A DNA stretch of 64,000 nt from Gracilaria domingensis (lineage: Eukaryota > Rhodophyta > Florideophyceae > Gracilariales > Gracilariaceae): NCBI GenBank assembly GCA_022539475.1, contig VCMS01000029.1, forward strand, positions 62,001 to 126,000, given 5' to 3'. The notes beneath the pieces are model-generated. The model was given only the letters and a program-made list of their open reading frames with translations, was not told the origin of the DNA and made no database searches. Position 1 is the stretch's first letter. Each line of letters starts with the position of its first letter. Of the stretch, positions 7,628 through 27,971 are shown in pieces. The position numbers and the translations under genes were made by a program.

Positions 7628-7737
7628 TTTTGTAACGGAATGACGCGGGTGGTGACAAACCCAACGGAAGTGCCAGGGGGTACCAGCCAAATTAATGGCA
7701 ATGTGCAGATGTGCACAATAAAATAAACAACAAATAA

Positions 7738-8943: not shown

Positions 8944-10449
8944 GTCACTCCAATCATCTTCAAGATCTTCTTTAAACGTGTCTTGCTTGTTTTGCCAGCG
9001 GTGCGTGAAGAATGTTACACGTTTGTTGTAATACTTTTTATCAGCAGCTGTAGCATGTTGTCCCGTAGAGTTTAGATTAGGGTTCGCAGAATGACAAAAC
9101 TGCAGCTGAAACGGCAATGGCGCCGCATTAGGAATTTGATTCTCTTCATGAGAGTAGAGCACAAGATCCCCGTTTCTAACAGCATTCAGGTAATTCATGG
9201 AACAGTTTCGTTGCGTGGCATAATCAGGTCCGTACTAAATAGATAAGATTACTTTCTTGAGGGGAAACGTCTGGTTTCTTCCGTTTGCCGTACTTCAATG
9301 TCACTTAGCTCCAAAAACACACGAATGCGTTTGGACATTTCATAGTACTGACAATGTCGGGATCGACAAGTTACATTGCACCCATATCTTCTCGAATGGC
9401 GTCAAGCAAATTACTTCCCTTCAACGACGAATTATTTTTCATTTAACTAAGGAACGAATTTTTAAAATTCACGCTGAATGTTATTGTGGACAGTAATAGT
9501 GCTTTACGGTTAGCGGGTATCCATAGACATTTCGTGGTAGATAGTTTGTCTTCTATTCGCAAATGTCAACCAACTTTGAAGGGGGGGAAGGTTGGTGTGA
9601 TTCTTTGTTGTGCCGACTGAGGAACACAGGTTCTTTGGGTGTCCACGAAGACTTGCTGAGAGGAAAGTGCGCTAGCGCACTTACTCGGGTCAGCAGCGTT
9701 AATAGTTTACTGTCTGCGTTAAAACAAATCCTACCGAGAAAGAAGGGAGATTGTTGTGTGTTTATCATCCGTAGGTTAAATACAAAGATGCTGCGTAGAC
9801 GTATCGTTATTGGTTCTGCGCAAGCTAATCAATATCACTAAAAGGATTGGCTGGTAGTGTAGCCACTTCTGACGTAATATTCTTGGTTATAATTCATCTT
9901 AAACTGGCAGTGGCCTTTTGCTCTTTACTTGTTGTCTGTTAAAATCTATATTGAAAAGGTGTACTTATTCGTGTTCAATAAAGATGTGTTTGAGATTATG
10001 AAACCACTGTTGAAAGTTTTAGCTCTGAGTTCGAGTAACTTATCAGCAAATCGCCAGAGTGAAAAAGATGTGTATTACGTCGGTGAAGTTTGTTGGGATG
10101 ACACTGTATTTTGGTATGATTTGTGTTTGGATGTGCTGTTGGATTTGGCGCTCTGCCAAAGCGAGAACCAAAATTTGCGTGTTTGTCTATGGTGAGCTGG
10201 CTTTTCTCTGGATATAAGAGCTGTAAACGGTTTGTCGTTTTCTTTATCGGGAGCAATGCTCTGACCGGTTCGATTTGTAGCTGGTGGTGTTCGGAGGCGC
10301 GTAGCGTCAATGGTGCCCATAACCTGAGATGAACACAACCGATTACTCGAACTCCTGGTTCGGTCTCGGAGGCGAACTGCCTTATTGTGGAGTACGTTGA
10401 GTGTTCTCGCTGTACACGTGTGCACACACTTCTCAAGTCCCTGACAATC
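8944..10449. other. non-genic stretch, nothing firm recognised
   Basis: No gene is supported. A minus-strand frame from 9198 runs straight into the LTR at 8943. Its last host-side residues are acidic and look mildly coding (KEDLEDDWSD), so an exon cut by the LTR insertion is possible but unproven. The rest is of mixed composition with short frames on both strands and no recognisable domain. Confidence 0.4.
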
Positions 10450-11418
10450 TCAGGACGGCAACAAGTGGCGGCGCTCACCCATGTGCGCCTCCATCGCGAA
10501 TCGGTGCAAGCTCTTGGCCGCGTCCTGCGGAATCATCAGCGGCCTTCGTTGACGCCTCACCGAGTTATGCCGCCCCACTCCCCCCTTCATGCTCTCTCCA
10601 AACGGCAACCGATCGATGACCGGCTGCAACGCACTCCTGTTCCGCATCTCACTCACATCCACCACAATATGATACGGGATGTGATCAAAGTACAGCTGTT
10701 GCGGACGGATATGCACGTCAATGCTCTGAAGCGCTATGTTGCCATTCTCGCGGATGCGGTCGAGGGCTAGCGCGAATTCGCTGATGTTCATGCACATTCT
10801 CGGCGACTCTGCAAGTCTTGCCAGCTTTCTGGTGTACGGCACAATGGGGCTGTGAATGAGACCGACGTTGTACTGCTTGGTGATGCAGGCGAACTTGTCG
10901 TTGAACGCGGAAATCAGACGATCGAACGGGTCTCTTTGGACGGCCAGGCGTAGCGTGGATGGCGACGTGAGTATCCGACGCTGCTCGCTTGTTGTGAAGT
11001 TGCGCAAATATATGGCTTGCGAATTCCAACAGGAGGCGCCTATGTTGGGTGGGTTTGTGTGACATTTCTTGTACGTGTGACTCTCACCGATGATGCCCTT
11101 GTATAGCCATTGGAATACGGAGGTACTTCCGCCCTTTGCCGTGGACGCCAGCAACAGGTCTGCGGACGGGAAGTAGACAAAGTTCTTGCTGGCACAGATT
11201 TGGTGGAGCAGGGTGTCATTGGTGAGCAGCTCGTGCATCCTAGGCGGGAGCGATGACGCTGCGCGTTGTGCGGTTTGCAGGGGGGCTGTGAGGCGACGGA
11301 GAGAGGTGAGTGATATGAGCAGAAGCAGCACAAGAACCAGAAGAGCGGTGGCGGTGGTTTTGGAGGTGGCTTTGGTGGTGCTTGTGGGTGACGCGGACTT
11401 GGCGATATGTTTGAGCAT
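10450..11418 (-). CDS. carbohydrate sulfotransferase, type II membrane protein
   Basis: This protein transfers sulfate from PAPS to a glycan, presumably in the Golgi lumen. An ATG at 11418 opens a 322-residue frame. Residues 24-38 are a hydrophobic signal anchor (ALLVLVLLLLISL). The 5'-phosphosulfate loop is STAKGGSTS at about 92-100, and the 3'-phosphate motif is QRDPFDRLISAF at about 161-172. These are the two PAPS-binding signatures of the sulfotransferase-2 family. Several Cys residues (75, 119, 130, 178) suit a lumenal fold. Red algae make sulfated galactans and carry many such enzymes, so a role in cell-wall polysaccharide sulfation is likely, but acceptor and position are unknown. The N-terminal Ser/Thr-rich tail would be cytosolic. 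Confidence 0.85.
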   Translation of the reverse strand: MLKHIAKSASPTSTTKATSKTTATALLVLVLLLLISLTSLRRLTAPLQTAQRAASSLPPRMHELLTNDTLLHQICASKNFVYFPSADLLLASTAKGGSTSVFQWLYKGIIGESHTYKKCHTNPPNIGASCWNSQAIYLRNFTTSEQRRILTSPSTLRLAVQRDPFDRLISAFNDKFACITKQYNVGLIHSPIVPYTRKLARLAESPRMCMNISEFALALDRIRENGNIALQSIDVHIRPQQLYFDHIPYHIVVDVSEMRNRSALQPVIDRLPFGESMKGGVGRHNSVRRQRRPLMIPQDAAKSLHRFAMEAHMGERRHLLPS

Positions 11419-12038: not shown

Positions 12039-12043
12039 TAATG
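12039..12043 (+). other. left TAATG boundary site (host/element A)
   Basis: TAATG is shared by all three boundaries (12039, 20003, 27967). Upstream host sequence (gagtctcaa) differs from the right end of the element, so identity with the other junctions starts at this pentamer. It would be the crossover or target sequence. Confidence 0.7.
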
Positions 12044-12061
12044 TAGGATTATTGTCCAAAA

Positions 12062-12092
12062 AGAACCGTGCTGCACGGTGCACTACGGTTCT
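12062..12092. repeat. left-end inverted motif pair AGAACCGT/ACGGTTCT, copy A
   Basis: Two 8-bp arms (12062-12069 and 12085-12092) are exact reverse complements 15 bp apart. Inside the spacer lie further GTGC and GCAC dyads. The motif AAGAACCGT also occurs in reverse at the right end of the element (ACGGTTCTT at 19986-19994). Such paired sites near a terminus fit recombinase or accessory protein binding. The same feature is at 20026-20056 in copy B. Confidence 0.6.
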
Positions 12093-12599
12093 CACAGATA
12101 ACTGCGTGACCAAAGCTTACACCAATAAACTATAGCTACGTAGCTGCCCATATCTGGTAGCCGCCAAAACGACTTTCATACCCTGCAGTAGAAAGTTTCA
12201 AATTTAGAGTTCACTTTTTGAAAGGTTTAATTCAAATCCATCTCAAAGCTTACAATGTAAGCCACTTCTGGAGGAATAACTTAGCAACGTACGACTACGT
12301 CATAACAAATTGTCGATCTTACTAAGAAACAAGAACCAAATTGTTACAAAGACACCAATAAATTCCACGGATCTCAACAAACCATAGACTCATTTGTTTC
12401 GTTATTTCAAACTTTGCAAACCCTGCAGTATACGGCAAATAACTACATGGAAAGTACTCATAACCAAGTTTCTACTGCTTTTAATTCAATATGAGCGTAA
12501 CACACTATCAAACAGTGTGACTAAATACAGCCTGATCATGACTCGTAGAGATTGTAACAGAGGCCCACAAATCCAAACTCTCTCATAATTCGTATCAAT

Positions 12600-13876
12600 G
12601 CCACTCTGGTCATATCACAAGCTGGCTTCTACAGCTTGTGTTCTGGTTATGTTGTGAGCCATCACCAGACTACCTAGCTCTTTTCGAAGTCTGACGATGA
12701 CTGGCAAGATTAGTGGCAAAAATTAAAAAATGCTAGCTTGCCCAGCACTTTTGCACCTCTGCCACTTTGGGCAGAGAACAAGATGGCTTTCCCAAGGAAT
12801 GCTATTGTAGGTGTGTGAGCCATCGCCAGCCTGCCCAGCTCGTCCGGCAGTGTGGCGATGGCTCCCGAGGTTAGAGGCATAAGTGTGAAAGTGGTTGCTT
12901 GTCCAGCACTTTTGCACCTCTTCACCGTTGGGCAGAGCACGGGCTGGCTTGCCCAGCTCGTGCTCGGATATATTTGTGAGCCATCGCCAGACTGCCCGGC
13001 TCGTCCAGCAGCCTGGCGATGGTTCACGGGGTTAGTGGTAAAGGTGCAAAAGTGCTGGCTCGCCCAGCACTTTTGCACCTCTGCCTCTTTGGGCAGAGCA
13101 CGAGCTGGCTTGCCCAGATCGTGCTCTGGTAGGTGTGTGAGCCATCGCCAGACTGCCCGGCTCGTCCGGCAGTGTGGCGATGGCTCTCGGGGTTAGTGGC
13201 AAAGGTGTAAGAGTGCTGGCTCGTCCAGCACTATTGCACCTGAGCCACTTTGGGCAGAGCAAAAGCTGGCTTGCCCAGCTCGTGCTCTGGTAGGTGTGTG
13301 AGCCATCGCCAGACTGCCCGGCTTGTCCAGCAGCCTGGCGATGGTTCACGGGGTTAGTGGTAAAGGTGCAAAATTGCTGGCTCGCCCAGCACTTTTGCAC
13401 CTCTGCCTCTTTGGGCAGAGCACGAGCTGGCTTGCCCAGATCGTGCTCTGGTAGGTGTGTGAGCCATCGCCAGACTGCCCGGCTCGTCCGGCAGTGTGGC
13501 GATGGCTCTCGGGGTTAGTGGCAAAGGTGTAAGAGTGCTGGCTCGTCCAGCACTATTGCACCTGAGCCACTTTGGGCAGAGCAAAAGCTGGCTTGCCCAG
13601 CTCGTGCTCTGGTAGGTGTGTGAGCCATCGCCAGACTGCCCGGCTTGTCCAGCAGCCTGGCGATGGTTCACGGGGTTAGTGGTAAAGGTGCAAAATTGCT
13701 GGCTCGCCCAGCACTTTTGCACCTATGCCACTTTGGGCAGAGCACGAGCTGGCTTGCCCAGCTCGTGCTCTGGTAGGTGTGTGAGCCATCGCCAGACTGC
13801 CCGGCTCGTCCGGCAGTGTGGCGATGGCTCTCGGGGTTATTGGCAAAGGAGCACGAGATGGCTTCCCCACCTCATG
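12600..13876 (+). repeat. array of ~161-bp palindromic repeats, left block, copy A
   Basis: About eight units follow one another. Two alternating variants make a 322-bp higher-order period, seen for example between 13032 and 13354. Each unit holds three strong dyads. One has arms agccatcgcca/tggcgatggct, one agcacgagctgg/cccagctcgtgct, and one aggtgcaaaagtgctgg/ccagcacttttgcacct. All three have a loop close to GGCTYGYCC. Left-most units are more degenerate. Because the DNA is near-palindromic, matching open frames appear on both strands; I do not regard these as genes. Confidence 0.88.
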
Positions 13877-14148
13877 CTCTGATTTGTGTGTGAATCTGAG
13901 CATAGGGTTTGGCCCAATTAAGAATGTCTTCATGGTGGTTGGCAGTGTGCATTAATGGATTTGAACATTTCGAACGATTGGGTTTCTCATTTCCATATGT
14001 GTGAGTCAATGATTGCTCCTAGAAGTAGATGATGCTGAAGGATGTGGACGAAAATGAACTCTCTGCAAACAAACGTGTTACTCAGAGGTCCTAATCTTTT
14101 ACACCTTAGAATAATGTTCATATGTAATGTCTAAAGAAACTATGAAGA

Positions 14149-15396
14149 TTATGACGAAGGTTGAGACTTACTATGGTGAGCCTCGTTTTCTACGGTCAAT
14201 GTTTTTGCATGCTGCAGAAAATCTTCAACAGATGCGAATCTGGGCAGATCAGGCGGGGCACAATCGTTGTAGGCTGCGCAATAGTTGTGATAAGCGTTCG
14301 GACCAGACATTTGTATAAGCTGCATAACCATCTCATCGCGTAAACCCAAGGAGCGATATAATTGAACACAGCCGCGTTTCATGGAGTGTCCCGAGTACGA
14401 CGGAATGTCGCAATCTCCAACACCGATTTGACGCAATCTTTGACGAAGAACATTCGTAAAGCTTTTGACATGCCAGGGCTTTGCTTGATTCAGCATAAAA
14501 AGGTCGGTATTGGCACGAATATCACAGAACAAATACCCCTTAGAGGCCCCACGCAAAGCGAGCCAAGAAAAAAGAGCAAGAAACGGATCCAAAAGTACGG
14601 AGAGCCTAATAGCGCTATGACCATCCCACTCACGTAGTACATAGTCTCTTTCAACTGTTGAGTTTTTGATAGATTCACGCATTGCCAATCGAACACCACC
14701 CGATCCCACACTTACGTTTTCTACCTTCAATTTGGTAACTTCATCGTACCGCAGTCCGAGATGAATTCCAAGAACTAACACAGCATGTAATGCCACATCT
14801 TGTGGACTGGGAATGCGATCGCTTCCGTACCAGAATTGTTCTGCAATATCACATATATTCTCGACAGTGAGTGGTCGAGCTCTATGGCTAAAGGTACCGT
14901 TTCGTGCTAAGTGCACACGATGAGCTTTACGCAGCCGTTCGATATCTGGATTATTGATTAGCGGGTTTCCTTGTGCTTCACCGTTCTTATCAACATACCA
15001 CGACTGATAATGACCATGCTTCGAGTAAACGAGTCTTAACCCTTGAACAAGTGCTCCCATCGTATTGTTCTTTAGGGCTTCTTTCGTACCAAATCCACAA
15101 TAGTCGGCCAAAAGATTCAGTACCAGCTCAGAACTGTTGCGTGTCACCTTTTGTGGGTCGGGAGCATTCTTCATAATTACGTACTTCTCTAGCACCTTTT
15201 CAGCTAGAGCAATGTTTGCTTTCGTAGCATCGCTATGGGCAGATGTAATCAAGTCGTGTCTGCTTCTCAAAGCAGACCCAGAGGCTTGCACCATGGGAAC
15301 GCGTCGCCCTCTACCTTTGCGGATCACAGGTTGGATACCTTCATTTGAATCTTTCCCAGTAGCTTGATCATCTTTGTTTTCCTTCCTGCTGCCCAT
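14149..15396 (-). CDS. tyrosine recombinase (Crypton-like), copy A
   Basis: This is predicted to cut and rejoin element ends through a 3'-phosphotyrosine link. The ATG at 15396 (MGSRKENKDD) gives 415 residues. The frame is open to a TAG a little upstream, so an N-terminal extension or spliced leader is possible. The catalytic constellation is visible: Arg216 in LGIHLGLRYDEVTKL, a His337/Arg341 block in SYSGHSMKRGC, and a C-terminal Tyr, probably Tyr372, in GPNAYHNYC. The HSMKRG form, with Lys before Arg, is like eukaryotic YR elements rather than bacterial HxLRH. A helical N-terminal region (about 70-185) would bind the core site. It is transcribed away from the GCR1_C-like gene, with about 297 bp between the two starts. 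Family is confident; subtype is inferred. Confidence 0.88.
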   Translation of the reverse strand: MGSRKENKDDQATGKDSNEGIQPVIRKGRGRRVPMVQASGSALRSRHDLITSAHSDATKANIALAEKVLEKYVIMKNAPDPQKVTRNSSELVLNLLADYCGFGTKEALKNNTMGALVQGLRLVYSKHGHYQSWYVDKNGEAQGNPLINNPDIERLRKAHRVHLARNGTFSHRARPLTVENICDIAEQFWYGSDRIPSPQDVALHAVLVLGIHLGLRYDEVTKLKVENVSVGSGGVRLAMRESIKNSTVERDYVLREWDGHSAIRLSVLLDPFLALFSWLALRGASKGYLFCDIRANTDLFMLNQAKPWHVKSFTNVLRQRLRQIGVGDCDIPSYSGHSMKRGCVQLYRSLGLRDEMVMQLIQMSGPNAYHNYCAAYNDCAPPDLPRFASVEDFLQHAKTLTVENEAHHSKSQPSS

Positions 15397-15693
15397 TTGA
15401 GACGAATGAAAATGAGTGAGATATTGCTTGACTTCATCCACAATAGGGAGAGAGCCTGCGATTTCCCCATACTAATGCGAAGGAAAGCAACATCAAAACG
15501 ATATTCGAAAGTCAAAACCTACATATTTGTCTGTTTATTTAGTATCTTTATCGCAACTGTCGTCTTGTTTCCCTCCAAAACTAAAATCAAGCTCCGGGTC
15601 TTTCTCTGACAGGAAGTGCACTGAACGTTTGCCCTTCCAGCAGATCCAGATTCATGGGATTTTGCTTCTATTGTCTCGACTTTCAGATCTACA
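15397..15693. promoter_or_regulatory. divergent promoter region between YR and GCR1_C-like gene, copy A
   Basis: The two start codons face away from each other across 297 bp, so both genes must be driven from here. The sequence is AT-richer than its surroundings, with several T-runs, and I see no repeated operator. The same region is at 23361-23657 in copy B. Confidence 0.5.
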
Positions 15694-16563
15694 ATGGAAC
15701 GTCATGGCTACGTTCCAGCTATTCAGGGTGGTGGAACTGGAATAGGATTCAAGCCGCCACGCCAGATCTGGGATTACGAGCATGCTGTGTTTTCCAAACT
15801 AAGGTCCCAGATTATGGCGTCGTTTAACAAAGACGCGAACTGCGGTACTGATCAGATCGATAAAGACAGATTCTTTGTGTGGAGAAGAGAGACGGAGCAT
15901 CGCTTCAAGACGTTGGAAAGGCGAAGACAGATCGTGAGTGAGCAGTGTTATCATCCAGAGAGATTGAATCGTAGCACGCCAAAAAAATGTATTCCAGAAT
16001 CAGACGTGAGGCGTGATTACCATGTAGGTAACCAATACGCAGATCGTCATATGCCGATTCAAACCTCTCAAACTGTTTTCGATATGGGCCAGGATTTTGT
16101 TCGTGAAACACACGTTTCTTCACCAGATACAGAGTGCGTCGGCGCCTCTGTTGCAACTATCAAATTCATTCCAAATCTACCGCCTACATTGGAAGAAGTG
16201 GTAGGATTATGGCGATATGGAGATAAAACGATGAACTTTAAGCCCGTTAGATTGTTTTTAAGGGCTTCTACGCGACGAACAATCGTCAGAAACTACACGG
16301 ATAAACATTGGAATCGAAGCGGTCAGAAATCAGCGTTCTACAGGTTCAAGGATATAGTACAGTTCGTTTCAGAACATGGACCACTTTTCCTAAAGATTGA
16401 GACGGAGGGACGGGATGTAGACTGGGATTATGGAATTTCAAATGTTAAGAAACTCACATTGTTCTCGAAACCGAGAGTTTCCATGAGCGCCTTACTACGA
16501 CTTGTCCGGGAGGAAGACAAGTCGCAAAGTATTCGACAGTTGTGTAACTCTCGCTCCAAGTAA
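15694..16563 (+). CDS. 289-residue protein with GCR1_C-like DNA-binding region, copy A
   Basis: The ATG at 15694 opens an intact frame. The N-terminal half is basic (RRETEHRFKTLERRRQ at about 64-79) and has no domain I recognise. Residues about 162-228 begin PPTLEEVVGLWRYGD and continue to YTDKHWNRSG and SAFYRFKDIVQFVSEHG. This order (LW core, central Pro-Val, Trp-Arg, then Tyr-Arg-x-x-x-Ile) resembles the GCR1_C DNA-binding domain found at the C-terminus of fungal Crypton recombinases. In those elements the domain is fused to the YR; here it is a separate divergent gene. It may bind the element ends or regulate the pair. The resemblance is from memory of the family pattern and has not been searched. 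Confidence 0.5.
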   Translation: MERHGYVPAIQGGGTGIGFKPPRQIWDYEHAVFSKLRSQIMASFNKDANCGTDQIDKDRFFVWRRETEHRFKTLERRRQIVSEQCYHPERLNRSTPKKCIPESDVRRDYHVGNQYADRHMPIQTSQTVFDMGQDFVRETHVSSPDTECVGASVATIKFIPNLPPTLEEVVGLWRYGDKTMNFKPVRLFLRASTRRTIVRNYTDKHWNRSGQKSAFYRFKDIVQFVSEHGPLFLKIETEGRDVDWDYGISNVKKLTLFSKPRVSMSALLRLVREEDKSQSIRQLCNSRSK

Positions 16564-16724
16564 AATGTTCGAACGTAAGGTCCATTTCAAGAGTCGTTGG
16601 CCAATTGCTCTCCCGTTCATATGATAAGATGAACGTAAACCGGCAGCGGCACCCTGATCCTGATGAGGCAGCCAGAATTAGTTCTTCTCTGCATTCATTG
16701 AAGCAACTGTCAGACTGCCAACCA

Positions 16725-17440
16725 GTGCAGTCTGGTGATGGCTCACAAGCTAGACAAGCCAGCCCGTGCTCTGCCCAAAGTGGCAGAGGGGCAAAAGTGC
16801 CGGGCGAGCCAGCACTTTTGCACCTTTGCCACTAACCCCGCGCGCCATCGCCAGACTGCTGGACGAGCCGGGCAGTCTGGCGATGGCTCACACACCTACC
16901 AGAGCACGAGCTGGGCAAGCCAGCCCGTGCTCTGCCCAAAGAGGCAGAGGTGCAAAAGTGCTGGGCGAGCCAGCACTCTTACACCTTTACCACTAACCCC
17001 GAGAGCCATCGCCACACTGCCGGACGAGCCGGGCAGTCTGGCGATGGCTCACACACCTACCAGAGCACGAGCTGGGCAAGCCAGCCCGTGCTCTGCCCAA
17101 AGAGGCAGAGGTGCAAAAGTGCTGGGCGAGCCAGCACTTTTGCACCTTTACCACTAACCCCGTGAAGCATCGCCAGGCTGCTGGACGAGCCGGGCAGTCT
17201 GGCGATGGCTCACAAATATATCCGAGCACGAGCTGGGCAAGCCAGCCCGTGCTCTGCCCAAAGAGGCAGAGGTGCAAAAGTGCTGGGCGAGCCAGCACTT
17301 TTGCACCTTTACCACGAACTCCGTAAACCATCGCCAGGCTGCCGGACGAGCCGGGCAGTCTGACGATGGCTCACACTCATTTCGGAGGACAAGCTGGTCG
17401 AGCCAGCTTGTGCTCTGAACCGAGTGGCGATGACACTTAA
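16725..17440 (-). repeat. palindromic ~161-bp repeat array, right block (inverted), copy A
   Basis: The same three dyads as in 12600-13876 appear here in the reverse order and orientation, about four and a half units. Together the two blocks form a long imperfect inverted repeat around the YR and its divergent partner. Terminal units towards 17440 are degenerate. Open frames in this block are artefacts of the repeats. Confidence 0.85.
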
Positions 17441-17702
17441 ATGCTGGGTGACCTTGTAGTTTAGCACCTAGGTCATGACCTAACGTCTCATGCCATTTAT
17501 GAACTGCTGATATATGGACATGCGGGGCCATCATTTTGAACAGTTTGTCAAACACACATCTGTAGCAGATTAAATAAATTTGTGACCCACGCATGGTTCG
17601 ACATCTGAAAGCTTAAGAGTTCAAGATAGTGCCCAGATCAGAAGCATATTCTTTCAAGGGGCATTGCGCGCATCCGCGTTCGGTAAGCGACCATTTGCCG
17701 CA

Positions 17703-18227
17703 ATGAACGCTAGCGCAGGTTCTAGTACGCCGCGTTTGAGTCATCCAAGATGTTGTGCGATATGCCTTGAAGATTTGGAAGGCTTCGTGGAGGTAACGAA
17801 CTGTTCTCACGTGTTTCACAGCTCTTGCATCTCCAATTGGATCAGCGTTAACGAACGAAACGTAACCAGCCTTCCAGATGTTTCTAATCTTTCAGAAGAA
17901 GACCAAATTCTTGAAATCGCTGAGCATCAGCGTTTGAACGCAAAAAAGCAAAGTGATAAATGTCCGAGCTGCAGAAAGGCTTTAAAGAAGAAAGAGTTCA
18001 CGTTTTACGTTGATTACGAAAACAACTACAAGAAAATGGATACCGATGGGAAATCGGAGGTGGAGAAAAAGAGAATTGCGAAGAGGTTGAAGAAAAATAA
18101 GAAGCGTTTAGAAGCAAGGCAACGACAGAGAGCCAAACAGATTTGCCTGGGGCAAGCTCCTACAGCTGAAGAATTGGCTAGGGAATTGCGAGGCGACGGT
18201 GGCCTACAAAACAACCACACGCTTTAG
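17703..18227 (+). CDS. RING-H2 finger protein, copy A
   Basis: The ATG at 17703 gives 174 residues. The RING opens CCAICLEDLEGF, then NCSHVFHSSCISNW (C-x-H-x2-H-x2-C), and after an insertion of about 48 residues closes CPSCRKAL. This is a C3H2C3-like set of zinc ligands with an unusually long second loop. The C-terminal third is very basic (KKRIAKRLKKNKKRLEARQR), so nuclear localisation or nucleic-acid contact is plausible. RING proteins usually act as ubiquitin ligases. It lies inside the YR element and is carried in both copies, so it is cargo or an accessory gene. An upstream TTG extension is possible, but the ATG is preferred. Confidence 0.78.
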   Translation: MNASAGSSTPRLSHPRCCAICLEDLEGFVEVTNCSHVFHSSCISNWISVNERNVTSLPDVSNLSEEDQILEIAEHQRLNAKKQSDKCPSCRKALKKKEFTFYVDYENNYKKMDTDGKSEVEKKRIAKRLKKNKKRLEARQRQRAKQICLGQAPTAEELARELRGDGGLQNNHTL

Positions 18228-18366
18228 GCAGCAGCGATGCCATGCACTCCAGGTTTTGTAGGCGGCAACGACGGCCAAAGAGGTTTTGGAGTTGCTAAGC
18301 AATAACGAGTTCGGTAGCGTGATCATAACGTTACTGAGCCATGGCAGATATTTGTTGCTCCACCAG

Positions 18367-18950
18367 TTAACTCCAGTAAAGAACCAAACGCTTTCCACTT
18401 ATCTTGGCGGCGGCAGAGGCGACCGGCGCGACAGCGGGAACGGTGGGGCGCTGAGGGGTGATCGGAGAGTCGGGTGTGAGAGCGGTTGGGCCCGCTTCTT
18501 TGCCAATCAACGTAACAGTGTCGACTGTGCCACAGCGGTAGTAGCCCTGACCGGACGCGATTCGGTACAGCGGGCGGCGAATGCGAAAGATGACGTTCTG
18601 CTCGCCCTCAAACACGGTGGTCTTGAACGGGCGGCGCGTGCGCAGCACGTCTCTGGTGACGATGCTCTCCTACGAGCCCTCCTGTTTGCGCGCGAACGCA
18701 CACACACACGGTTAGCACGACGGACAGACACTGCTGAGAACAAGCAACTGCAACATACCTTCGCGATGTAGCCCACGACGTGGCCGCGCGGCGCGGCGCG
18801 GAAAGAGTACTTGTCGGCCTGCTCAAAGCCGAGCAGAATGTTGCCCCACTCGTACTAGCCCGTGACGACGAGCGCCAGCGGCGACAGCACGAGCTGCGCG
18901 CCAGGCGACGCGCAGCGCGCGCGCGGCTTGGACAGCGGCGGCGCGTCAGC
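18367..18950 (-). pseudogene. phospholipid scramblase-like gene fragment with intron, copy A
   Basis: Minus-strand translation in two exons gives scramblase-family blocks. The first exon reads QLVLSPLALVVTG, then after a TAG at 18857-18855, YEWGNILLGFEQADKYSF and VVGYIAK. An intron from 18758 to 18682 (77 nt, GTATGT..CAG, with CTAAC) follows. The second exon holds another TAG (18672-18670), then VLRTRRPFKTTVFEGE and VIFRIRRPLY. The E-W-G-N..FEQ and LRTRRPF..IRRP order is that of scramblases. The C-terminal half of the usual domain is missing and replaced by Pro/Ala-rich sequence. Two stops and the truncation make it non-functional. It looks like a host gene piece captured as DNA, since the intron is retained. 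Confidence 0.62.
18682..18758 (-). other. spliceosomal intron inside the scramblase fragment, copy A
   Basis: The minus-strand donor is AAG|GTATGT at 18758 and the acceptor is AACAG|GAGGG at 18682. A CTAAC branch-like sequence lies about 30 nt before the acceptor. Removing it joins the YIAK and EGS codons of a continuous scramblase-like reading (apart from the stops). The copy-B equivalent is 26646-26722. Confidence 0.6.
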
Positions 18951-19420
18951 GGCGTCGCACAGCGCGCACGCTCGGCGCAGCGCGGCGACGCGCGGGGCTG
19001 CGCGCGCGGTGAGGCAAGCGGCGGCGCTCAGTCGGCGCGATGCGGCGCGCGAGAGCGAGGCGATTCAGCGCCATGACGCGTACAGGTGGCGGCTGCGGCG
19101 GGAAAGCGCGGCGGACATGCGGGCGGGGCGGACGTGGCGCGGTCCGGGCGCTCGGCGGGTGACGATAGCAGCGGTGGCGCGTCAGGGGCGTCGCACAGCG
19201 TGCGCGCTTGTCGCGGCGCGGCGACGCGCAAGGCTGCGCGTGCGGTGGGGCGAGCGGCGGCTCCCAGTCTGCGCGATGCGGCGCGCAAGAGCGAGATGAG
19301 ACAGCGCCCTGACACGTACAGGTGGCCACTGCGGCGGGGAAGCCCGGCGAACATGCGGGTGGGGTGAACGGGGCGCGGTCCGGGCGCTCGGCCGGTGAAG
19401 ATAGTGAGCTTGGCGCGTGG
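18930..19420. repeat. GC-rich ~236-bp tandem repeats, copy A
   Basis: About two copies occur: tacaggtggc starts at 19081 and 19317, 236 bp apart, with flanking blocks such as cgcggtccgggcgctcgg also repeated. The whole stretch is very rich in CpG. It creates long overlapping frames on both strands, including a 271-residue minus-strand frame (19028-19843); I do not call these genes. The repeats may derive from sequence upstream of the captured scramblase fragment. Confidence 0.65.
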
Positions 19421-19869
19421 CGCCGCTGTTGTTGAACGGCGATTCGCGATGGTCGCCGGCGCTTGCGTCGAAGCTGCGCTGGTTATCATCGCGAAGATTA
19501 CAGTCCGTCGTCGTCGGGGGAGCGGCTCAGCATTGGAACCGAGCATGCGCTTGAGGGCGCTCTTGATGCCAGAGACTGGTGGGGTAGTGAGCGCGGGCGC
19601 CACAAGGGGCGCAGTAGAAAGGCTTTGACGTGATGCAGTCGACGCGCGAACGCGATCGGCAGCGCGCGCTGCGGAGAGGCGTTGGGGTGCTGAATGAAAA
19701 AACGGCGGCGCCGTCGCGAATGTGCCGACTGTAGTAGCGAAAAGCATTTGCTGCGGCACTGAGAGCCCTTTGCTGGCCTTCGAGATTTTCACGAATTCTC
19801 GCAAAATCTCGCTGTCCAGGGGTGATTGAAATCGTTTTTGCACGGACTACTTTAGAAGTCTGCGTCCGA

Positions 19870-20002
19870 CTTCTTACAGTGTGACCCGTCAAGTAGTGGG
19901 TTCTCAATAGCTGTTGCTCGCATACTGTAGCGGGTACAGTGTAGCGTATAGGTGTTTGTTGTGTAGTGACACTGTGGGAAATATGACGGTTCTTATGGCA
20001 GG
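19870..20002. repeat. right-end motifs of the YR element, copy A
   Basis: Near the right end lie three copies of an ACAGTGT/ACACTGT motif (ttacagtgtg near 19878, tacagtgtag near 19934, gacactgtgg near 19967). The last 20 bp contain ACGGTTCTT (19986-19994), the reverse complement of AAGAACCGT at the left end. Repeated short sites at an element terminus are typical of recombinase or accessory-factor binding, but the role is inferred. Confidence 0.5.
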
Positions 20003-20007
20003 TAATG
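20003..20007 (+). other. central TAATG junction between copies A and B
   Basis: One pentamer joins the right end of copy A to the left end of copy B. It sits within a 30-bp interval bounded by ACGGTTCTT (19986-19994) and AAGAACCGT (20025-20033). The same junction would exist in a circularised single element, so this is the predicted circle (donor) attachment site captured in the chromosome. Confidence 0.7.
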
Positions 20008-20563
20008 TAGGATTATTGTCCAAAAAGAACCGTGCTGCACGGTGCACTACGGTTCTCACAGATAACTGCGTGACCAAAGCTTACACCAATAAACTATAGC
20101 TACGTAGCTGCCCATATCTGGTAGCCGCCAAAACGACTTTCATACCCTGCAGTAGAAAGTTTCAAATTTAGAGTTCACTTTTTGAAAGGTTTAATTCAAA
20201 TCCATCTCAAAGCTTACAATGTAAGCCACTTCTGGAGGAATAACTTAGCAACGTACGACTACGTCATAACAAATTGTCGATCTTACTAAGAAACAAGAAC
20301 CAAATTGTTACAAAGACACCAATAAATTCCACGGATCTCAACAAACCATAGACTCATTTGTTTCGTTATTTCAAACTTTGCAAACCCTGCAGTATACGGC
20401 AAATAACTACATGGAAAGTACTCATAACCAAGTTTCTACTGCTTTTAATTCAATATGAGCGTAACACACTATCAAACAGTGTGACTAAATACAGCCTGAT
20501 CATGACTCGTAGAGATTGTAACAGAGGCCCACAAATCCAAACTCTCTCATAATTCGTATCAAT

Positions 20564-21840
20564 GCCACTCTGGTCATATCACAAGCTGGCTTCTACAGCT
20601 TGTGTTCTGGTTATGTTGTGAGCCATCACCAGACTACCTAGCTCTTTTCGAAGTCTGACGATGACTGGCAAGATTAGTGGCAAAAATTAAAAAATGCTAG
20701 CTTGCCCAGCACTTTTGCACCTCTGCCACTTTGGGCAGAGAACAAGATGGCTTTCCCAAGGAATGCTATTGTAGGTGTGTGAGCCATCGCCAGCCTGCCC
20801 AGCTCGTCCGGCAGTGTGGCGATGGCTCCCGAGGTTAGAGGCATAAGTGTGAAAGTGGTTGCTTGTCCAGCACTTTTGCACCTCTTCACCGTTGGGCAGA
20901 GCACGGGCTGGCTTGCCCAGCTCGTGCTCGGATATATTTGTGAGCCATCGCCAGACTGCCCGGCTCGTCCAGCAGCCTGGCGATGGTTCACGGGGTTAGT
21001 GGTAAAGGTGCAAAAGTGCTGGCTCGCCCAGCACTTTTGCACCTCTGCCTCTTTGGGCAGAGCACGAGCTGGCTTGCCCAGATCGTGCTCTGGTAGGTGT
21101 GTGAGCCATCGCCAGACTGCCCGGCTCGTCCGGCAGTGTGGCGATGGCTCTCGGGGTTAGTGGCAAAGGTGTAAGAGTGCTGGCTCGTCCAGCACTATTG
21201 CACCTGAGCCACTTTGGGCAGAGCAAAAGCTGGCTTGCCCAGCTCGTGCTCTGGTAGGTGTGTGAGCCATCGCCAGACTGCCCGGCTTGTCCAGCAGCCT
21301 GGCGATGGTTCACGGGGTTAGTGGTAAAGGTGCAAAATTGCTGGCTCGCCCAGCACTTTTGCACCTCTGCCTCTTTGGGCAGAGCACGAGCTGGCTTGCC
21401 CAGATCGTGCTCTGGTAGGTGTGTGAGCCATCGCCAGACTGCCCGGCTCGTCCGGCAGTGTGGCGATGGCTCTCGGGGTTAGTGGCAAAGGTGTAAGAGT
21501 GCTGGCTCGTCCAGCACTATTGCACCTGAGCCACTTTGGGCAGAGCAAAAGCTGGCTTGCCCAGCTCGTGCTCTGGTAGGTGTGTGAGCCATCGCCAGAC
21601 TGCCCGGCTTGTCCAGCAGCCTGGCGATGGTTCACGGGGTTAGTGGTAAAGGTGCAAAATTGCTGGCTCGCCCAGCACTTTTGCACCTATGCCACTTTGG
21701 GCAGAGCACGAGCTGGCTTGCCCAGCTCGTGCTCTGGTAGGTGTGTGAGCCATCGCCAGACTGCCCGGCTCGTCCGGCAGTGTGGCGATGGCTCTCGGGG
21801 TTATTGGCAAAGGAGCACGAGATGGCTTCCCCACCTCATG
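20564..21840 (+). repeat. palindromic repeat array, left block, copy B
   Basis: Same as 12600-13876 shifted by 7964: about eight ~161-bp units with three dyads each. Confidence 0.88.
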
Positions 21841-22112
21841 CTCTGATTTGTGTGTGAATCTGAGCATAGGGTTTGGCCCAATTAAGAATGTCTTCATGGT
21901 GGTTGGCAGTGTGCATTAATGGATTTGAACATTTCGAACGATTGGGTTTCTCATTTCCATATGTGTGAGTCAATGATTGCTCCTAGAAGTAGATGATGCT
22001 GAAGGATGTGGACGAAAATGAACTCTCTGCAAACAAACGTGTTACTCAGAGGTCCTAATCTTTTACACCTTAGAATAATGTTCATATGTAATGTCTAAAG
22101 AAACTATGAAGA

Positions 22113-23360
22113 TTATGACGAAGGTTGAGACTTACTATGGTGAGCCTCGTTTTCTACGGTCAATGTTTTTGCATGCTGCAGAAAATCTTCAACAGATGCG
22201 AATCTGGGCAGATCAGGCGGGGCACAATCGTTGTAGGCTGCGCAATAGTTGTGATAAGCGTTCGGACCAGACATTTGTATAAGCTGCATAACCATCTCAT
22301 CGCGTAAACCCAAGGAGCGATATAATTGAACACAGCCGCGTTTCATGGAGTGTCCCGAGTACGACGGAATGTCGCAATCTCCAACACCGATTTGACGCAA
22401 TCTTTGACGAAGAACATTCGTAAAGCTTTTGACATGCCAGGGCTTTGCTTGATTCAGCATAAAAAGGTCGGTATTGGCACGAATATCACAGAACAAATAC
22501 CCCTTAGAGGCCCCACGCAAAGCGAGCCAAGAAAAAAGAGCAAGAAACGGATCCAAAAGTACGGAGAGCCTAATAGCGCTATGACCATCCCACTCACGTA
22601 GTACATAGTCTCTTTCAACTGTTGAGTTTTTGATAGATTCACGCATTGCCAATCGAACACCACCCGATCCCACACTTACGTTTTCTACCTTCAATTTGGT
22701 AACTTCATCGTACCGCAGTCCGAGATGAATTCCAAGAACTAACACAGCATGTAATGCCACATCTTGTGGACTGGGAATGCGATCGCTTCCGTACCAGAAT
22801 TGTTCTGCAATATCACATATATTCTCGACAGTGAGTGGTCGAGCTCTATGGCTAAAGGTACCGTTTCGTGCTAAGTGCACACGATGAGCTTTACGCAGCC
22901 GTTCGATATCTGGATTATTGATTAGCGGGTTTCCTTGTGCTTCACCGTTCTTATCAACATACCACGACTGATAATGACCATGCTTCGAGTAAACGAGTCT
23001 TAACCCTTGAACAAGTGCTCCCATCGTATTGTTCTTTAGGGCTTCTTTCGTACCAAATCCACAATAGTCGGCCAAAAGATTCAGTACCAGCTCAGAACTG
23101 TTGCGTGTCACCTTTTGTGGGTCGGGAGCATTCTTCATAATTACGTACTTCTCTAGCACCTTTTCAGCTAGAGCAATGTTTGCTTTCGTAGCATCGCTAT
23201 GGGCAGATGTAATCAAGTCGTGTCTGCTTCTCAAAGCAGACCCAGAGGCTTGCACCATGGGAACGCGTCGCCCTCTACCTTTGCGGATCACAGGTTGGAT
23301 ACCTTCATTTGAATCTTTCCCAGTAGCTTGATCATCTTTGTTTTCCTTCCTGCTGCCCAT
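22113..23360 (-). CDS. tyrosine recombinase (Crypton-like), copy B
   Basis: Its translation is the same as the copy-A gene (ATG at 23360, 415 residues), with the same Arg216, His337/Arg341 and Tyr372 signature residues. Both copies are therefore potentially active. Two intact recombinases in one tandem array could resolve it by recombination between TAATG sites, leaving one copy and releasing a circle. Confidence 0.88.
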   Translation of the reverse strand: MGSRKENKDDQATGKDSNEGIQPVIRKGRGRRVPMVQASGSALRSRHDLITSAHSDATKANIALAEKVLEKYVIMKNAPDPQKVTRNSSELVLNLLADYCGFGTKEALKNNTMGALVQGLRLVYSKHGHYQSWYVDKNGEAQGNPLINNPDIERLRKAHRVHLARNGTFSHRARPLTVENICDIAEQFWYGSDRIPSPQDVALHAVLVLGIHLGLRYDEVTKLKVENVSVGSGGVRLAMRESIKNSTVERDYVLREWDGHSAIRLSVLLDPFLALFSWLALRGASKGYLFCDIRANTDLFMLNQAKPWHVKSFTNVLRQRLRQIGVGDCDIPSYSGHSMKRGCVQLYRSLGLRDEMVMQLIQMSGPNAYHNYCAAYNDCAPPDLPRFASVEDFLQHAKTLTVENEAHHSKSQPSS

Positions 23361-23657
23361 TTGAGACGAATGAAAATGAGTGAGATATTGCTTGACTTCA
23401 TCCACAATAGGGAGAGAGCCTGCGATTTCCCCATACTAATGCGAAGGAAAGCAACATCAAAACGATATTCGAAAGTCAAAACCTACATATTTGTCTGTTT
23501 ATTTAGTATCTTTATCGCAACTGTCGTCTTGTTTCCCTCCAAAACTAAAATCAAGCTCCGGGTCTTTCTCTGACAGGAAGTGCACTGAACGTTTGCCCTT
23601 CCAGCAGATCCAGATTCATGGGATTTTGCTTCTATTGTCTCGACTTTCAGATCTACA

Positions 23658-24527
23658 ATGGAACGTCATGGCTACGTTCCAGCTATTCAGGGTGGTGGAA
23701 CTGGAATAGGATTCAAGCCGCCACGCCAGATCTGGGATTACGAGCATGCTGTGTTTTCCAAACTAAGGTCCCAGATTATGGCGTCGTTTAACAAAGACGC
23801 GAACTGCGGTACTGATCAGATCGATAAAGACAGATTCTTTGTGTGGAGAAGAGAGACGGAGCATCGCTTCAAGACGTTGGAAAGGCGAAGACAGATCGTG
23901 AGTGAGCAGTGTTATCATCCAGAGAGATTGAATCGTAGCACGCCAAAAAAATGTATTCCAGAATCAGACGTGAGGCGTGATTACCATGTAGGTAACCAAT
24001 ACGCAGATCGTCATATGCCGATTCAAACCTCTCAAACTGTTTTCGATATGGGCCAGGATTTTGTTCGTGAAACACACGTTTCTTCACCAGATACAGAGTG
24101 CGTCGGCGCCTCTGTTGCAACTATCAAATTCATTCCAAATCTACCGCCTACATTGGAAGAAGTGGTAGGATTATGGCGATATGGAGATAAAACGATGAAC
24201 TTTAAGCCCGTTAGATTGTTTTTAAGGGCTTCTACGCGACGAACAATCGTCAGAAACTACACGGATAAACATTGGAATCGAAGCGGTCAGAAATCAGCGT
24301 TCTACAGGTTCAAGGATATAGTACAGTTCGTTTCAGAACATGGACCACTTTTCCTAAAGATTGAGACGGAGGGACGGGATGTAGACTGGGATTATGGAAT
24401 TTCAAATGTTAAGAAACTCACATTGTTCTCGAAACCGAGAGTTTCCATGAGCGCCTTACTACGACTTGTCCGGGAGGAAGACAAGTCGCAAAGTATTCGA
24501 CAGTTGTGTAACTCTCGCTCCAAGTAA
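23658..24527 (+). CDS. 289-residue GCR1_C-like protein, copy B
   Basis: Same as the copy-A gene, including the LWRYGD..YTDKHWNRSG region. It is divergent from the copy-B recombinase with the same 297-bp interval. Function is inferred from context: element-end binding or regulation. Confidence 0.5.
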   Translation: MERHGYVPAIQGGGTGIGFKPPRQIWDYEHAVFSKLRSQIMASFNKDANCGTDQIDKDRFFVWRRETEHRFKTLERRRQIVSEQCYHPERLNRSTPKKCIPESDVRRDYHVGNQYADRHMPIQTSQTVFDMGQDFVRETHVSSPDTECVGASVATIKFIPNLPPTLEEVVGLWRYGDKTMNFKPVRLFLRASTRRTIVRNYTDKHWNRSGQKSAFYRFKDIVQFVSEHGPLFLKIETEGRDVDWDYGISNVKKLTLFSKPRVSMSALLRLVREEDKSQSIRQLCNSRSK

Positions 24528-24688
24528 AATGTTCGAACGTAAGGTCCATTTCAAGAGTCGTTGGCCAATTGCTCTCCCGTTCATATGATAAGATGAACGT
24601 AAACCGGCAGCGGCACCCTGATCCTGATGAGGCAGCCAGAATTAGTTCTTCTCTGCATTCATTGAAGCAACTGTCAGACTGCCAACCA

Positions 24689-25404
24689 GTGCAGTCTGGT
24701 GATGGCTCACAAGCTAGACAAGCCAGCCCGTGCTCTGCCCAAAGTGGCAGAGGGGCAAAAGTGCCGGGCGAGCCAGCACTTTTGCACCTTTGCCACTAAC
24801 CCCGCGCGCCATCGCCAGACTGCTGGACGAGCCGGGCAGTCTGGCGATGGCTCACACACCTACCAGAGCACGAGCTGGGCAAGCCAGCCCGTGCTCTGCC
24901 CAAAGAGGCAGAGGTGCAAAAGTGCTGGGCGAGCCAGCACTCTTACACCTTTACCACTAACCCCGAGAGCCATCGCCACACTGCCGGACGAGCCGGGCAG
25001 TCTGGCGATGGCTCACACACCTACCAGAGCACGAGCTGGGCAAGCCAGCCCGTGCTCTGCCCAAAGAGGCAGAGGTGCAAAAGTGCTGGGCGAGCCAGCA
25101 CTTTTGCACCTTTACCACTAACCCCGTGAAGCATCGCCAGGCTGCTGGACGAGCCGGGCAGTCTGGCGATGGCTCACAAATATATCCGAGCACGAGCTGG
25201 GCAAGCCAGCCCGTGCTCTGCCCAAAGAGGCAGAGGTGCAAAAGTGCTGGGCGAGCCAGCACTTTTGCACCTTTACCACGAACTCCGTAAACCATCGCCA
25301 GGCTGCCGGACGAGCCGGGCAGTCTGACGATGGCTCACACTCATTTCGGAGGACAAGCTGGTCGAGCCAGCTTGTGCTCTGAACCGAGTGGCGATGACAC
25401 TTAA
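24689..25404 (-). repeat. palindromic repeat array, right block (inverted), copy B
   Basis: Same as 16725-17440 shifted by 7964. Confidence 0.85.
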
Positions 25405-25666
25405 ATGCTGGGTGACCTTGTAGTTTAGCACCTAGGTCATGACCTAACGTCTCATGCCATTTATGAACTGCTGATATATGGACATGCGGGGCCATCATTT
25501 TGAACAGTTTGTCAAACACACATCTGTAGCAGATTAAATAAATTTGTGACCCACGCATGGTTCGACATCTGAAAGCTTAAGAGTTCAAGATAGTGCCCAG
25601 ATCAGAAGCATATTCTTTCAAGGGGCATTGCGCGCATCCGCGTTCGGTAAGCGACCATTTGCCGCA

Positions 25667-26191
25667 ATGAACGCTAGCGCAGGTTCTAGTACGCCGCGTT
25701 TGAGTCATCCAAGATGTTGTGCGATATGCCTTGAAGATTTGGAAGGCTTCGTGGAGGTAACGAACTGTTCTCACGTGTTTCACAGCTCTTGCATCTCCAA
25801 TTGGATCAGCGTTAACGAACGAAACGTAACCAGCCTTCCAGATGTTTCTAATCTTTCAGAAGAAGACCAAATTCTTGAAATCGCTGAGCATCAGCGTTTG
25901 AACGCAAAAAAGCAAAGTGATAAATGTCCGAGCTGCAGAAAGGCTTTAAAGAAGAAAGAGTTCACGTTTTACGTTGATTACGAAAACAACTACAAGAAAA
26001 TGGATACCGATGGGAAATCGGAGGTGGAGAAAAAGAGAATTGCGAAGAGGTTGAAGAAAAATAAGAAGCGTTTAGAAGCAAGGCAACGACAGAGAGCCAA
26101 ACAGATTTGCCTGGGGCAAGCTCCTACAGCTGAAGAATTGGCTAGGGAATTGCGAGGCGACGGTGGCCTACAAAACAACCACACGCTTTAG
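25667..26191 (+). CDS. RING-H2 finger protein, copy B
   Basis: Same translation as the copy-A gene: 174 residues, CAIC, NCSHVFHSSC and CPSC zinc ligands with a long insertion between the second and third, and a lysine/arginine-rich tail. The intact frame in both copies shows no sign of decay, unlike the scramblase fragment next to it. Confidence 0.78.
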   Translation: MNASAGSSTPRLSHPRCCAICLEDLEGFVEVTNCSHVFHSSCISNWISVNERNVTSLPDVSNLSEEDQILEIAEHQRLNAKKQSDKCPSCRKALKKKEFTFYVDYENNYKKMDTDGKSEVEKKRIAKRLKKNKKRLEARQRQRAKQICLGQAPTAEELARELRGDGGLQNNHTL

Positions 26192-26330
26192 GCAGCAGCG
26201 ATGCCATGCACTCCAGGTTTTGTAGGCGGCAACGACGGCCAAAGAGGTTTTGGAGTTGCTAAGCAATAACGAGTTCGGTAGCGTGATCATAACGTTACTG
26301 AGCCATGGCAGATATTTGTTGCTCCACCAG

Positions 26331-26914
26331 TTAACTCCAGTAAAGAACCAAACGCTTTCCACTTATCTTGGCGGCGGCAGAGGCGACCGGCGCGACAGCG
26401 GGAACGGTGGGGCGCTGAGGGGTGATCGGAGAGTCGGGTGTGAGAGCGGTTGGGCCCGCTTCTTTGCCAATCAACGTAACAGTGTCGACTGTGCCACAGC
26501 GGTAGTAGCCCTGACCGGACGCGATTCGGTACAGCGGGCGGCGAATGCGAAAGATGACGTTCTGCTCGCCCTCAAACACGGTGGTCTTGAACGGGCGGCG
26601 CGTGCGCAGCACGTCTCTGGTGACGATGCTCTCCTACGAGCCCTCCTGTTTGCGCGCGAACGCACACACACACGGTTAGCACGACGGACAGACACTGCTG
26701 AGAACAAGCAACTGCAACATACCTTCGCGATGTAGCCCACGACGTGGCCGCGCGGCGCGGCGCGGAAAGAGTACTTGTCGGCCTGCTCAAAGCCGAGCAG
26801 AATGTTGCCCCACTCGTACTAGCCCGTGACGACGAGCGCCAGCGGCGACAGCACGAGCTGCGCGCCAGGCGACGCGCAGCGCGCGCGCGGCTTGGACAGC
26901 GGCGGCGCGTCAGC
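26331..26914 (-). pseudogene. phospholipid scramblase-like fragment with intron, copy B
   Basis: Same as 18367-18950 shifted by 7964, with the same two in-frame TAG codons and the same 77-nt intron (26646-26722). The shared lesions show that decay came before the duplication of the element. Confidence 0.62.
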
Positions 26915-27384
26915 GGCGTCGCACAGCGCGCACGCTCGGCGCAGCGCGGCGACGCGCGGGGCTGCGCGCGCGGTGAGGCAAGCGGCGGCGCTCAGTCGGC
27001 GCGATGCGGCGCGCGAGAGCGAGGCGATTCAGCGCCATGACGCGTACAGGTGGCGGCTGCGGCGGGAAAGCGCGGCGGACATGCGGGCGGGGCGGACGTG
27101 GCGCGGTCCGGGCGCTCGGCGGGTGACGATAGCAGCGGTGGCGCGTCAGGGGCGTCGCACAGCGTGCGCGCTTGTCGCGGCGCGGCGACGCGCAAGGCTG
27201 CGCGTGCGGTGGGGCGAGCGGCGGCTCCCAGTCTGCGCGATGCGGCGCGCAAGAGCGAGATGAGACAGCGCCCTGACACGTACAGGTGGCCACTGCGGCG
27301 GGGAAGCCCGGCGAACATGCGGGTGGGGTGAACGGGGCGCGGTCCGGGCGCTCGGCCGGTGAAGATAGTGAGCTTGGCGCGTGG
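26894..27384. repeat. GC-rich ~236-bp tandem repeats, copy B
   Basis: Same as 18930-19420 shifted by 7964. Long frames on both strands here are composition artefacts. Confidence 0.65.
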
Positions 27385-27966
27385 CGCCGCTGTTGTTGAA
27401 CGGCGATTCGCGATGGTCGCCGGCGCTTGCGTCGAAGCTGCGCTGGTTATCATCGCGAAGATTACAGTCCGTCGTCGTCGGGGGAGCGGCTCAGCATTGG
27501 AACCGAGCATGCGCTTGAGGGCGCTCTTGATGCCAGAGACTGGTGGGGTAGTGAGCGCGGGCGCCACAAGGGGCGCAGTAGAAAGGCTTTGACGTGATGC
27601 AGTCGACGCGCGAACGCGATCGGCAGCGCGCGCTGCGGAGAGGCGTTGGGGTGCTGAATGAAAAAACGGCGGCGCCGTCGCGAATGTGCCGACTGTAGTA
27701 GCGAAAAGCATTTGCTGCGGCACTGAGAGCCCTTTGCTGGCCTTCGAGATTTTCACGAATTCTCGCAAAATCTCGCTGTCCAGGGGTGATTGAAATCGTT
27801 TTTGCACGGACTACTTTAGAAGTCTGCGTCCGACTTCTTACAGTGTGACCCGTCAAGTAGTGGGTTCTCAATAGCTGTTGCTCGCATACTGTAGCGGGTA
27901 CAGTGTAGCGTATAGGTGTTTGTTGTGTAGTGACACTGTGGGAAATATGACGGTTCTTATGGCAGG

Positions 27967-27971
27967 TAATG
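27967..27971 (+). other. right TAATG boundary site (element B/host)
   Basis: This is the third TAATG. Sequence to the left is the element's right end (ttatggcagg); sequence to the right (attattatttgatgg) is host. Joining the left host flank to this site would give the predicted empty site gagtctcaa-TAATG-attattattt. Confidence 0.7.

Follow-up and report, generated by a model that had tools for sequence, protein, structure and literature searches.

Within a 64,000-nucleotide stretch of the Gracilaria domingensis assembly (contig VCMS01000029.1, hereafter the window), we found two head-to-tail copies of a 7,964-bp element that encodes a tyrosine recombinase (YR). The tandem is present in the assembly, with one copy of the pentamer TAATG at each of its three boundaries and zero host bases between the units. 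We consider it probable that this is an autonomous DNA element mobilized by its YR, which would recombine at a 5-bp TAATG core, and that recombination by the YR at one of the element ends produced the tandem, through integration of a circle or an equivalent unequal sister exchange.

Self-comparison of the window returned a single uninterrupted identical run, positions 12039..20007 matching 20003..27971 over 7,969 bases at an offset of 7,964. Unit A (12039..20002, forward strand, left TAATG included) and unit B (20003..27966, same strand) show 0 differences, and the same ends occur in the copies at loci C1, C7 and C70. The core reads GTCTCAA-TAATG-TAGGATTATT at the host/A junction (12039..12043), TTATGGCAGG-TAATG-TAGGATTATT at the A/B junction (20003..20007) and TTATGGCAGG-TAATG-ATTATTATTT at the B/host junction (27967..27971), all on the forward strand. 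A sequence-only reading of this DNA had described such a tandem, with a single TAATG at each junction and an intact YR per unit. Both descriptions proved exact, each unit containing an open 440-codon YR frame.

The A/B junction, GCAGG-TAATG-TAGGATT, is the sequence expected of a circle junction. This join occurs once in the assembled genome, and of seven places matching a left-end pattern C29:82003 is the sole one with a right end before it. Near the left end lies a subterminal motif pair, GAACCGT...ACGGTTC (12063..12091), of which the AAAAAGAACCGTG part is retained in a divergent element at C60. The right subterminal motif, ACGGTTCTTATGGCAGG (19986..20002), ends in the GCAGG that precedes the core; it is kept in C43, C23, C312, C60 and a distant lineage termed group C, while C41 reads CCAGG. 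Inspection of the A/B junction found no symmetric arms around TAATG, only a short subterminal inverted motif.

Dispersed copies, empty sites and the TAATG core

Searching the 77.9-Mb genome with the YR gene gave eight matches, two of them in the tandem itself, four in close copies (C1, C7, C315 and C70) and two at 72-74% (C128 and C37). Relative to unit A, substitutions number 6 in C1 and 3 in C7 and amount to ~1.2% in C315 and 0.95% in C70, the latter two over the aligned part, which has many gap columns. The YR frame is intact in four of the six close copies, both units counted; C315 has a stop in the gene and C7 a frameshift. The parts of the C70 copy lie 12-13 kb apart, with the right end at C70:8192. 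The C7 copy also contains another insertion near its left end with a 9-bp duplication. This ~4.7-kb insertion (C7:507440-512174) follows element base 57 and duplicates bases 49-57, a Mutator-like pattern.

With the tandem counted once, the left end reads TAATG-TAGGATTATTG in 5/5 close loci, after TCAA, TCGG, TTGG, GTAG and ATAA. The right end reads GGCAGG-TAATG in the four of five loci that retain it, before ATTATT, ACTTTT, GGTGCT and TTGGAT. The joined flanks of four insertions share no mutual matches longer than 28 bases. According to the sequence-only reading, copies with boundaries other than TAATG would have spoken against it; all four left ends and all three surviving right ends of the further close copies carry the pentamer.

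Pattern searches with the element ends identified seven left-end places, all beginning with TAATG, and 13 right-end places, nine ending in TAATG and four in GAATG; these patterns contain TAATG and are biased toward it, and nine of ten loci were also recovered by plain DNA searches. The four GAATG matches (C109, C159, C509 and C612) were dropped, as GTAGTGACACTGT is missing upstream of them and they seem to belong to a single other repeat. Right ends with TAATG are also present at C43, C41, C23 and C312, and the 3,451-bp C60 element is bounded by TAATG on either side. Relative to the element, TAATG has the same orientation in all ten loci with a recognized end. The interior of the C60 element resembles, by eye from translations, hAT transposase remnants.

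Joined flanks of four insertions were searched against the genome for empty sites. For the C70 insertion, a paralogue at C70:92866-93302 is uninterrupted at the core and reads AAAATAATAATGTTGGATTT, with exactly one TAATG, so that one TAATG belonged to the target and the second was brought by the element. TAATG is well supported as the putative recombination core, being constant at both ends of independent insertions and single in the empty site found. For C60, the empty site was unreadable, as the left flank is itself a repeat ending near the junction; a ~200-bp repeat ending near GGTAGAT, present at C151, C29:328127, C216, C248 and C82, abuts this element.

A related pattern is seen in group C (C49, C241, C18 and C23), whose YRs are 46-51% identical to that of the tandem and whose elements measure 13,287 and 13,681 bp in two copies. 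One end, read as reverse complement, terminates in GCAGGGAATG in all three copies read (C49, C241 and C18); the other begins with TCAATGGTATATTG in C49, C241 and C23, and a stretch fetched from C26 held neither boundary. A right boundary initially placed after ACAGA was rejected, since C49 and C23 have ~220 further bases without counterpart in C241; the common end is CATTGA. The pre-insertion site predicted for C49 with a shared AATG core exists as an exact 31-base sequence at C15 and C144 and with one to three mismatches at C20, C21 and C175. Uninterrupted sites were found for both group C insertions tested: the joined C49 query aligns to C15 without length change over 291 bases, as does that of C241 to C337 over 404 bases, the latter by alignment only. 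These sites indicate that the TC before the core derives from the target while the GG at the opposite end is carried by the element. Group C shows the same logic as the tandem element, with an AATG core. Conservation of GCAGG-NAATG between lineages whose YRs differ at about half of their residues suggests that this end motif is tied to the enzyme.

A further lineage, group B (C88, C51 and kin), has ~98% similarity over at least 12.6 kb, reaching the end of the DNA read. C88 and C51 contain the YR, the ORF2 described below, further open reading frames (ORFs) and short inverted arrays; in the C51 YR, Gln replaces the first catalytic Arg. C577 shares its flank with C51, and the pair look like segmental duplicates.

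The recombinase and its companion genes

The YR gene lies on the reverse strand at 14149..15396 in unit A and, identically, at 22113..23360 in unit B. It encodes 415 residues from its ATG within the 440-codon frame, open from 15471, and its stop lies 2.1 kb inside the element. The protein is well supported as a Cre-fold tyrosine recombinase: P1 Cre is its best solved structural match, spanning the core-binding and catalytic domains at ~16% identity. By analogy with Cre, candidate catalytic positions are R231, K259, H352, K355 (followed by R356) and Y387, numbered on the 430-residue ORF 14149-15441. Outside the host genome we found 36 related proteins with 42-62% identity, of which 34 have no source name; of the other two, one belongs to Gracilariopsis chorda and the second comes from a eukaryotic transcriptome. 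Pattern scans with the YR alignment gave 37 candidate stretches in IMG/VR and 39 in GTDB genomes, none of which was confirmed as a viral or prokaryotic relative, respectively; each scan used one peptide pattern and is weak evidence. In six within-group codon comparisons, the ratio of nonsynonymous to synonymous rates (dN/dS) was 0.23-0.86, with one undefined, and the changes were too sparse to be of much weight. In comparisons between groups, synonymous sites have reached saturation and the proportion of nonsynonymous differences (pN) is ~0.4, a codon pattern that fits long purifying selection on the YR.

Divergent from the YR gene is ORF2, which encodes 289 residues on the forward strand (15694..16563 in unit A; identical at 23658..24527 in unit B). 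An ORF2 homologue lies at most 12 kb from 25 of 38 YR places in the genome, merged from 58 matches including short relics; 21 are divergent and four upstream in the same direction. With the six close copies omitted (both units counted), ORF2 is near 19 of 32 YR places, 15 of them divergent. At C31, C221, C249 and C9, the ORF2 match stands directly upstream of the YR in the same direction, in contrast to the divergent order elsewhere. Homologues outside the host genome were absent at E<=0.001 with one sequence and numbered two with an alignment. For function, hmmscan of 10 homologues gave no result, a PDB profile search only one weak match (leucyl-tRNA synthetase, E 0.01), and an AlphaFold model from three sequences had a predicted local distance difference test score (pLDDT) of 37.9 and was not used. 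ORF2 may be a DNA-binding accessory factor.

A third gene encodes a 174-residue RING-finger protein (Pfam zf-C3HC4, E=5e-09) on the forward strand at 17703..18227, identical to that at 25667..26191 in unit B. Its homologues form 27 merged places, and 10 of the 21 outside the close copies lie at most 10 kb from a YR place, versus ~1% expected (binomial ~4e-15, a crude value that treats related elements as independent). Because ORF2 and RING homologues cluster near YR places, the three genes look like a module.

The YR gene and ORF2 are bracketed by two oppositely oriented arrays of a 161-bp repeat. The left array has 7.8 copies (12599..13853 in unit A; 20563-21817 in unit B), and the inverted right array has 4.2 (16744..17417; 24708-25381). 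One repeat folds into a hairpin-rich structure. A GC-rich part of the unit contains a 236-bp repeat. Domain scans covered 14 distinct frames among the 31 stop-to-stop frames of at least 90 codons in unit A; most remaining frames fall in repeat arrays or overlap scanned ones. The scanned frames gave no match to a DDE or reverse transcriptase (RT) domain, and no conjugation genes were recognized in them.

Origin of the tandem

In the mechanism that we propose, the YR would recombine the element at TAATG, which would be present at both integrated ends, at the join of the excised form and as a single copy in the target. An excised form with one TAATG and a target TAATG would then yield host-TAATG-element-TAATG-host. 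A resident copy would also be a target, its end TAATGs adjoining putative binding sites of the enzyme itself, and a second recombination at a resident element end would create a head-to-tail tandem with a single TAATG at each junction. Probably the first unit gave rise to the second once the DNA had replicated, by excision from one sister chromatid and reintegration at the copy on the other; alternatively, the YR may directly exchange the two ends of element copies on sisters. Core recombination between excised element and target would explain the tandem as well as the constant pentamer, with its fixed orientation and its single occurrence in the empty site. We infer YR activity, binding sites, the circle and the order of events and, only tentatively, that the second unit originated from a circle instead of an unequal exchange between sisters carried out by this enzyme.

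Site counts and divergence bear on how the second unit arose. TAATG occurs 59 times in 48 kb outside the element (both strands), extrapolating to ~95,000 in the genome, and an insertion at random would hit the end of a resident element with a chance of ~2e-4, if five insertions occurred in succession and all sites were used equally. The tandem thus suggests that element ends are preferred as sites or that exchange took place between the element's own ends. Aligned positions differing from the tandem units number 4 in C7 and 8 in C1, as opposed to 0 between the units, so the second unit most likely came from the first, unless gene conversion intervened.

A YR exchange that joins the right end on one sister chromatid to the left end on its sister, without any free circle, overlaps with the mechanism that we favor. 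It would give the same product by the same enzyme and core and account for the perfect unit identity, and sequence does not distinguish it from integration of a circle; the copies dispersed among unrelated flanks, however, need an excised form at some stage. As the source of this tandem we regard it as possible, though on balance doubtful. An assembly artefact, with one real copy at the locus and a second added by the assembler, would equally be expected to yield two perfectly identical 8-kb units. Against this, the join is unique in the assembly and the dispersed copies provide no end-to-start overlap. Such an error would presumably still require reads across the join, whether derived from a real tandem or a circle or chimeric themselves, and we judge it unlikely.

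Two further routes seem highly improbable to us. The sequence-only reading had held that a transposase would not produce a tandem with shared sites, which was too strong: an enzyme with a fixed TAATG target and a 5-bp target duplication could by chance insert beside its own copy, at the flanking TAATG, and leave a single shared site. One TAATG in the empty site and two in the filled site fit such a duplication just as well. Since the shared-site tandem alone is no proof, the case against a transposase needs the fixed orientation, the YR gene and the undetected DDE gene together. The non-palindromic TAATG has one orientation in all ten loci with a recognized end, a YR gene is present with its frame intact in most close copies, and the scanned frames gave no DDE domain, leaving an enzyme acting in trans as a possibility. 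Moreover, group C shares AATG only, and next to it, at one end, two bases agree with the empty target, as recombination predicts. We give equally little credence to host repair, whether by unequal crossing-over or by microhomology-mediated duplication between two TAATG copies. The direct repeats at the element ends do supply 5 bp of microhomology in the right places, but this is far below the need of ordinary homologous recombination, and repair would have had no reason to hit both element ends exactly among thousands of possible breakpoints.

Several observations weigh against YR-mediated recombination at TAATG. Some concern the DNA: no circle was seen in the assembled sequence, and the identity of the units could also stem from gene conversion. 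The sequence-only reading had proposed a search for the empty site, and this was only partly successful; beyond the C70 paralogue with its single TAATG, no genome match spanned the site for the window, C1 or C7 insertions. C315 has lost its right end, C61 is a right-end relic without TAATG, and C128 and C37 have no recognizable TAATG end in the stretches read. At the group B ends no core was readable, and among four further copies examined for the left boundary only C577 aligned. Others concern the protein. Lys occupies the position of Cre R292 in 32 of 33 YR homologues, with an Arg at the next position in 32 of 33, and the consensus has Met at Cre W315, so that activity cannot be assumed from motifs. 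By sequence, the YR is barely visible: Pfam Phage_integrase is sub-threshold (E 0.14), a single-sequence PDB search gave no recombinase match and a profile reached Cre at E 1.5 only.

Relation to known elements and implications

Cryptons are the closest point of comparison. Sections of PMC3212892 (Kojima and Jurka 2011) describe 4-6-bp terminal direct repeats, considered the substrate of recombination, in fungal and oomycete/diatom Cryptons, and their absence in animal Cryptons. Most CryptonS elements end in a fixed 5-mer, TATGG, and a C48 peptidase of the Ulp1 family is encoded as a second protein in some. The tandem element resembles Cryptons as a eukaryotic, YR-moved DNA element with no RT detected, no long terminal inverted repeats and direct repeats of TAATG or AATG at its termini, TAATG being comparable to TATGG. 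Its RING protein may parallel the Ulp1-family peptidase through the ubiquitin/SUMO pathways. It differs in its catalytic tetrad, R-H-K-Y in place of the R-H-R-Y of Cryptons (Lys in 32/33 homologues; the same replacement occurs in the examined group B and group C proteins), and in its divergently transcribed YR and separate ORF2, RING protein, bracketing inverted minisatellite arrays and length of 8-13 kb. GCR1_C, the DNA-binding domain of CryptonF, had no match in hmmscan among 37 YRs (E<=1) or 10 ORF2 proteins (E<=10); the C-terminal domain of ORF2 may nevertheless resemble it. The 10 Pfam families matched by any of the 37 YR homologues at E<=1 included none known to be Crypton-derived. Of the Crypton-like character proposed by the sequence-only reading, the short terminal direct repeats hold, as do, for the scanned frames, the YR as sole recombinase or transposase and the lack of RT, while the R-H-R-Y tetrad does not. 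The element would thus work like a Crypton, but we do not count it among the Cryptons, given the differing tetrad.

Other systems share fewer features. Starships are far larger, with a DUF3435 captain as first gene. The tandem element has an internal YR, and neither this protein nor its homologues matched DUF3435 in Pfam scans. Starships are likewise YR-driven and gene-carrying with short direct repeats and a postulated but unreported circle (PMC12506042, in part); the relevant section of this 2025 paper states that no work to date has shown one. The bacterial elements Tn916 and Tn1549 differ from the tandem element, which has no recognized conjugation gene in the scanned frames, matching element and target cores and a eukaryotic host. 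In P1 Cre the spacer lies between symmetric arms, which were not found around TAATG, and R292 and W315 correspond to Lys and a consensus Met in this YR family, even though Cre is the best structural match. DIRS and Ngaro elements are set apart by their RT and DDE transposons by their transposase, neither of which was matched in the scanned frames. In the parts covered of the literature on Crypton or tyrosine recombinase elements in Chondrus crispus, Gracilaria, Gracilariopsis and Rhodophyta, no description of such elements was found, nor in the available sections of PMC3627910, PMC4814812 and PMC4455052. The last mentions 1,181 Repbase entries for Chondrus crispus, which could contain relatives.

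Elsewhere in the window, a long terminal repeat (LTR)-type retroelement occupies 1-8951, its direct repeats (1-1067 and 7883-8951, 98.4% identical) surrounding integrase core and aspartyl protease ORFs. A sulfotransferase-family ORF (10450-11418; Sulfotransfer_2, E 5.1e-09) lies directly left of the tandem. To its right are a Polycomb SUZ12-like gene with VEFS-Box and Zn_SUZ12 domains adjoining a WD40 gene (36537-38663 and 35217-36503) and, on the minus strand at 55854-58943, a Gypsy-like polyprotein with RT, RNase H, integrase and chromodomain.

In a broader picture that we find plausible but hold only tentatively, a eukaryotic lineage undescribed in the literature covered, with a YR, ORF2 and RING core and a natural R-H-K-Y tetrad, would have diversified in probably red-algal genomes, moving as a circle via an AATG or TAATG core and gaining copies in its own ends, with the tandem junction as a fossil of the circle junction. 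For Cryptons, circles have been postulated by analogy with bacterial elements (PMC3212892, in part). The tandem element makes this question testable: it is young and compact at 8 kb, its genes are open, its ends and 5-bp core are defined, an empty site is available and its A/B junction has exactly the sequence predicted for a circle. The second catalytic Arg is replaced by a conserved Lys although copies of the family have clearly moved, which represents a natural experiment on YR chemistry, and the linked RING protein hints at a connection between such elements and the ubiquitin/SUMO system.

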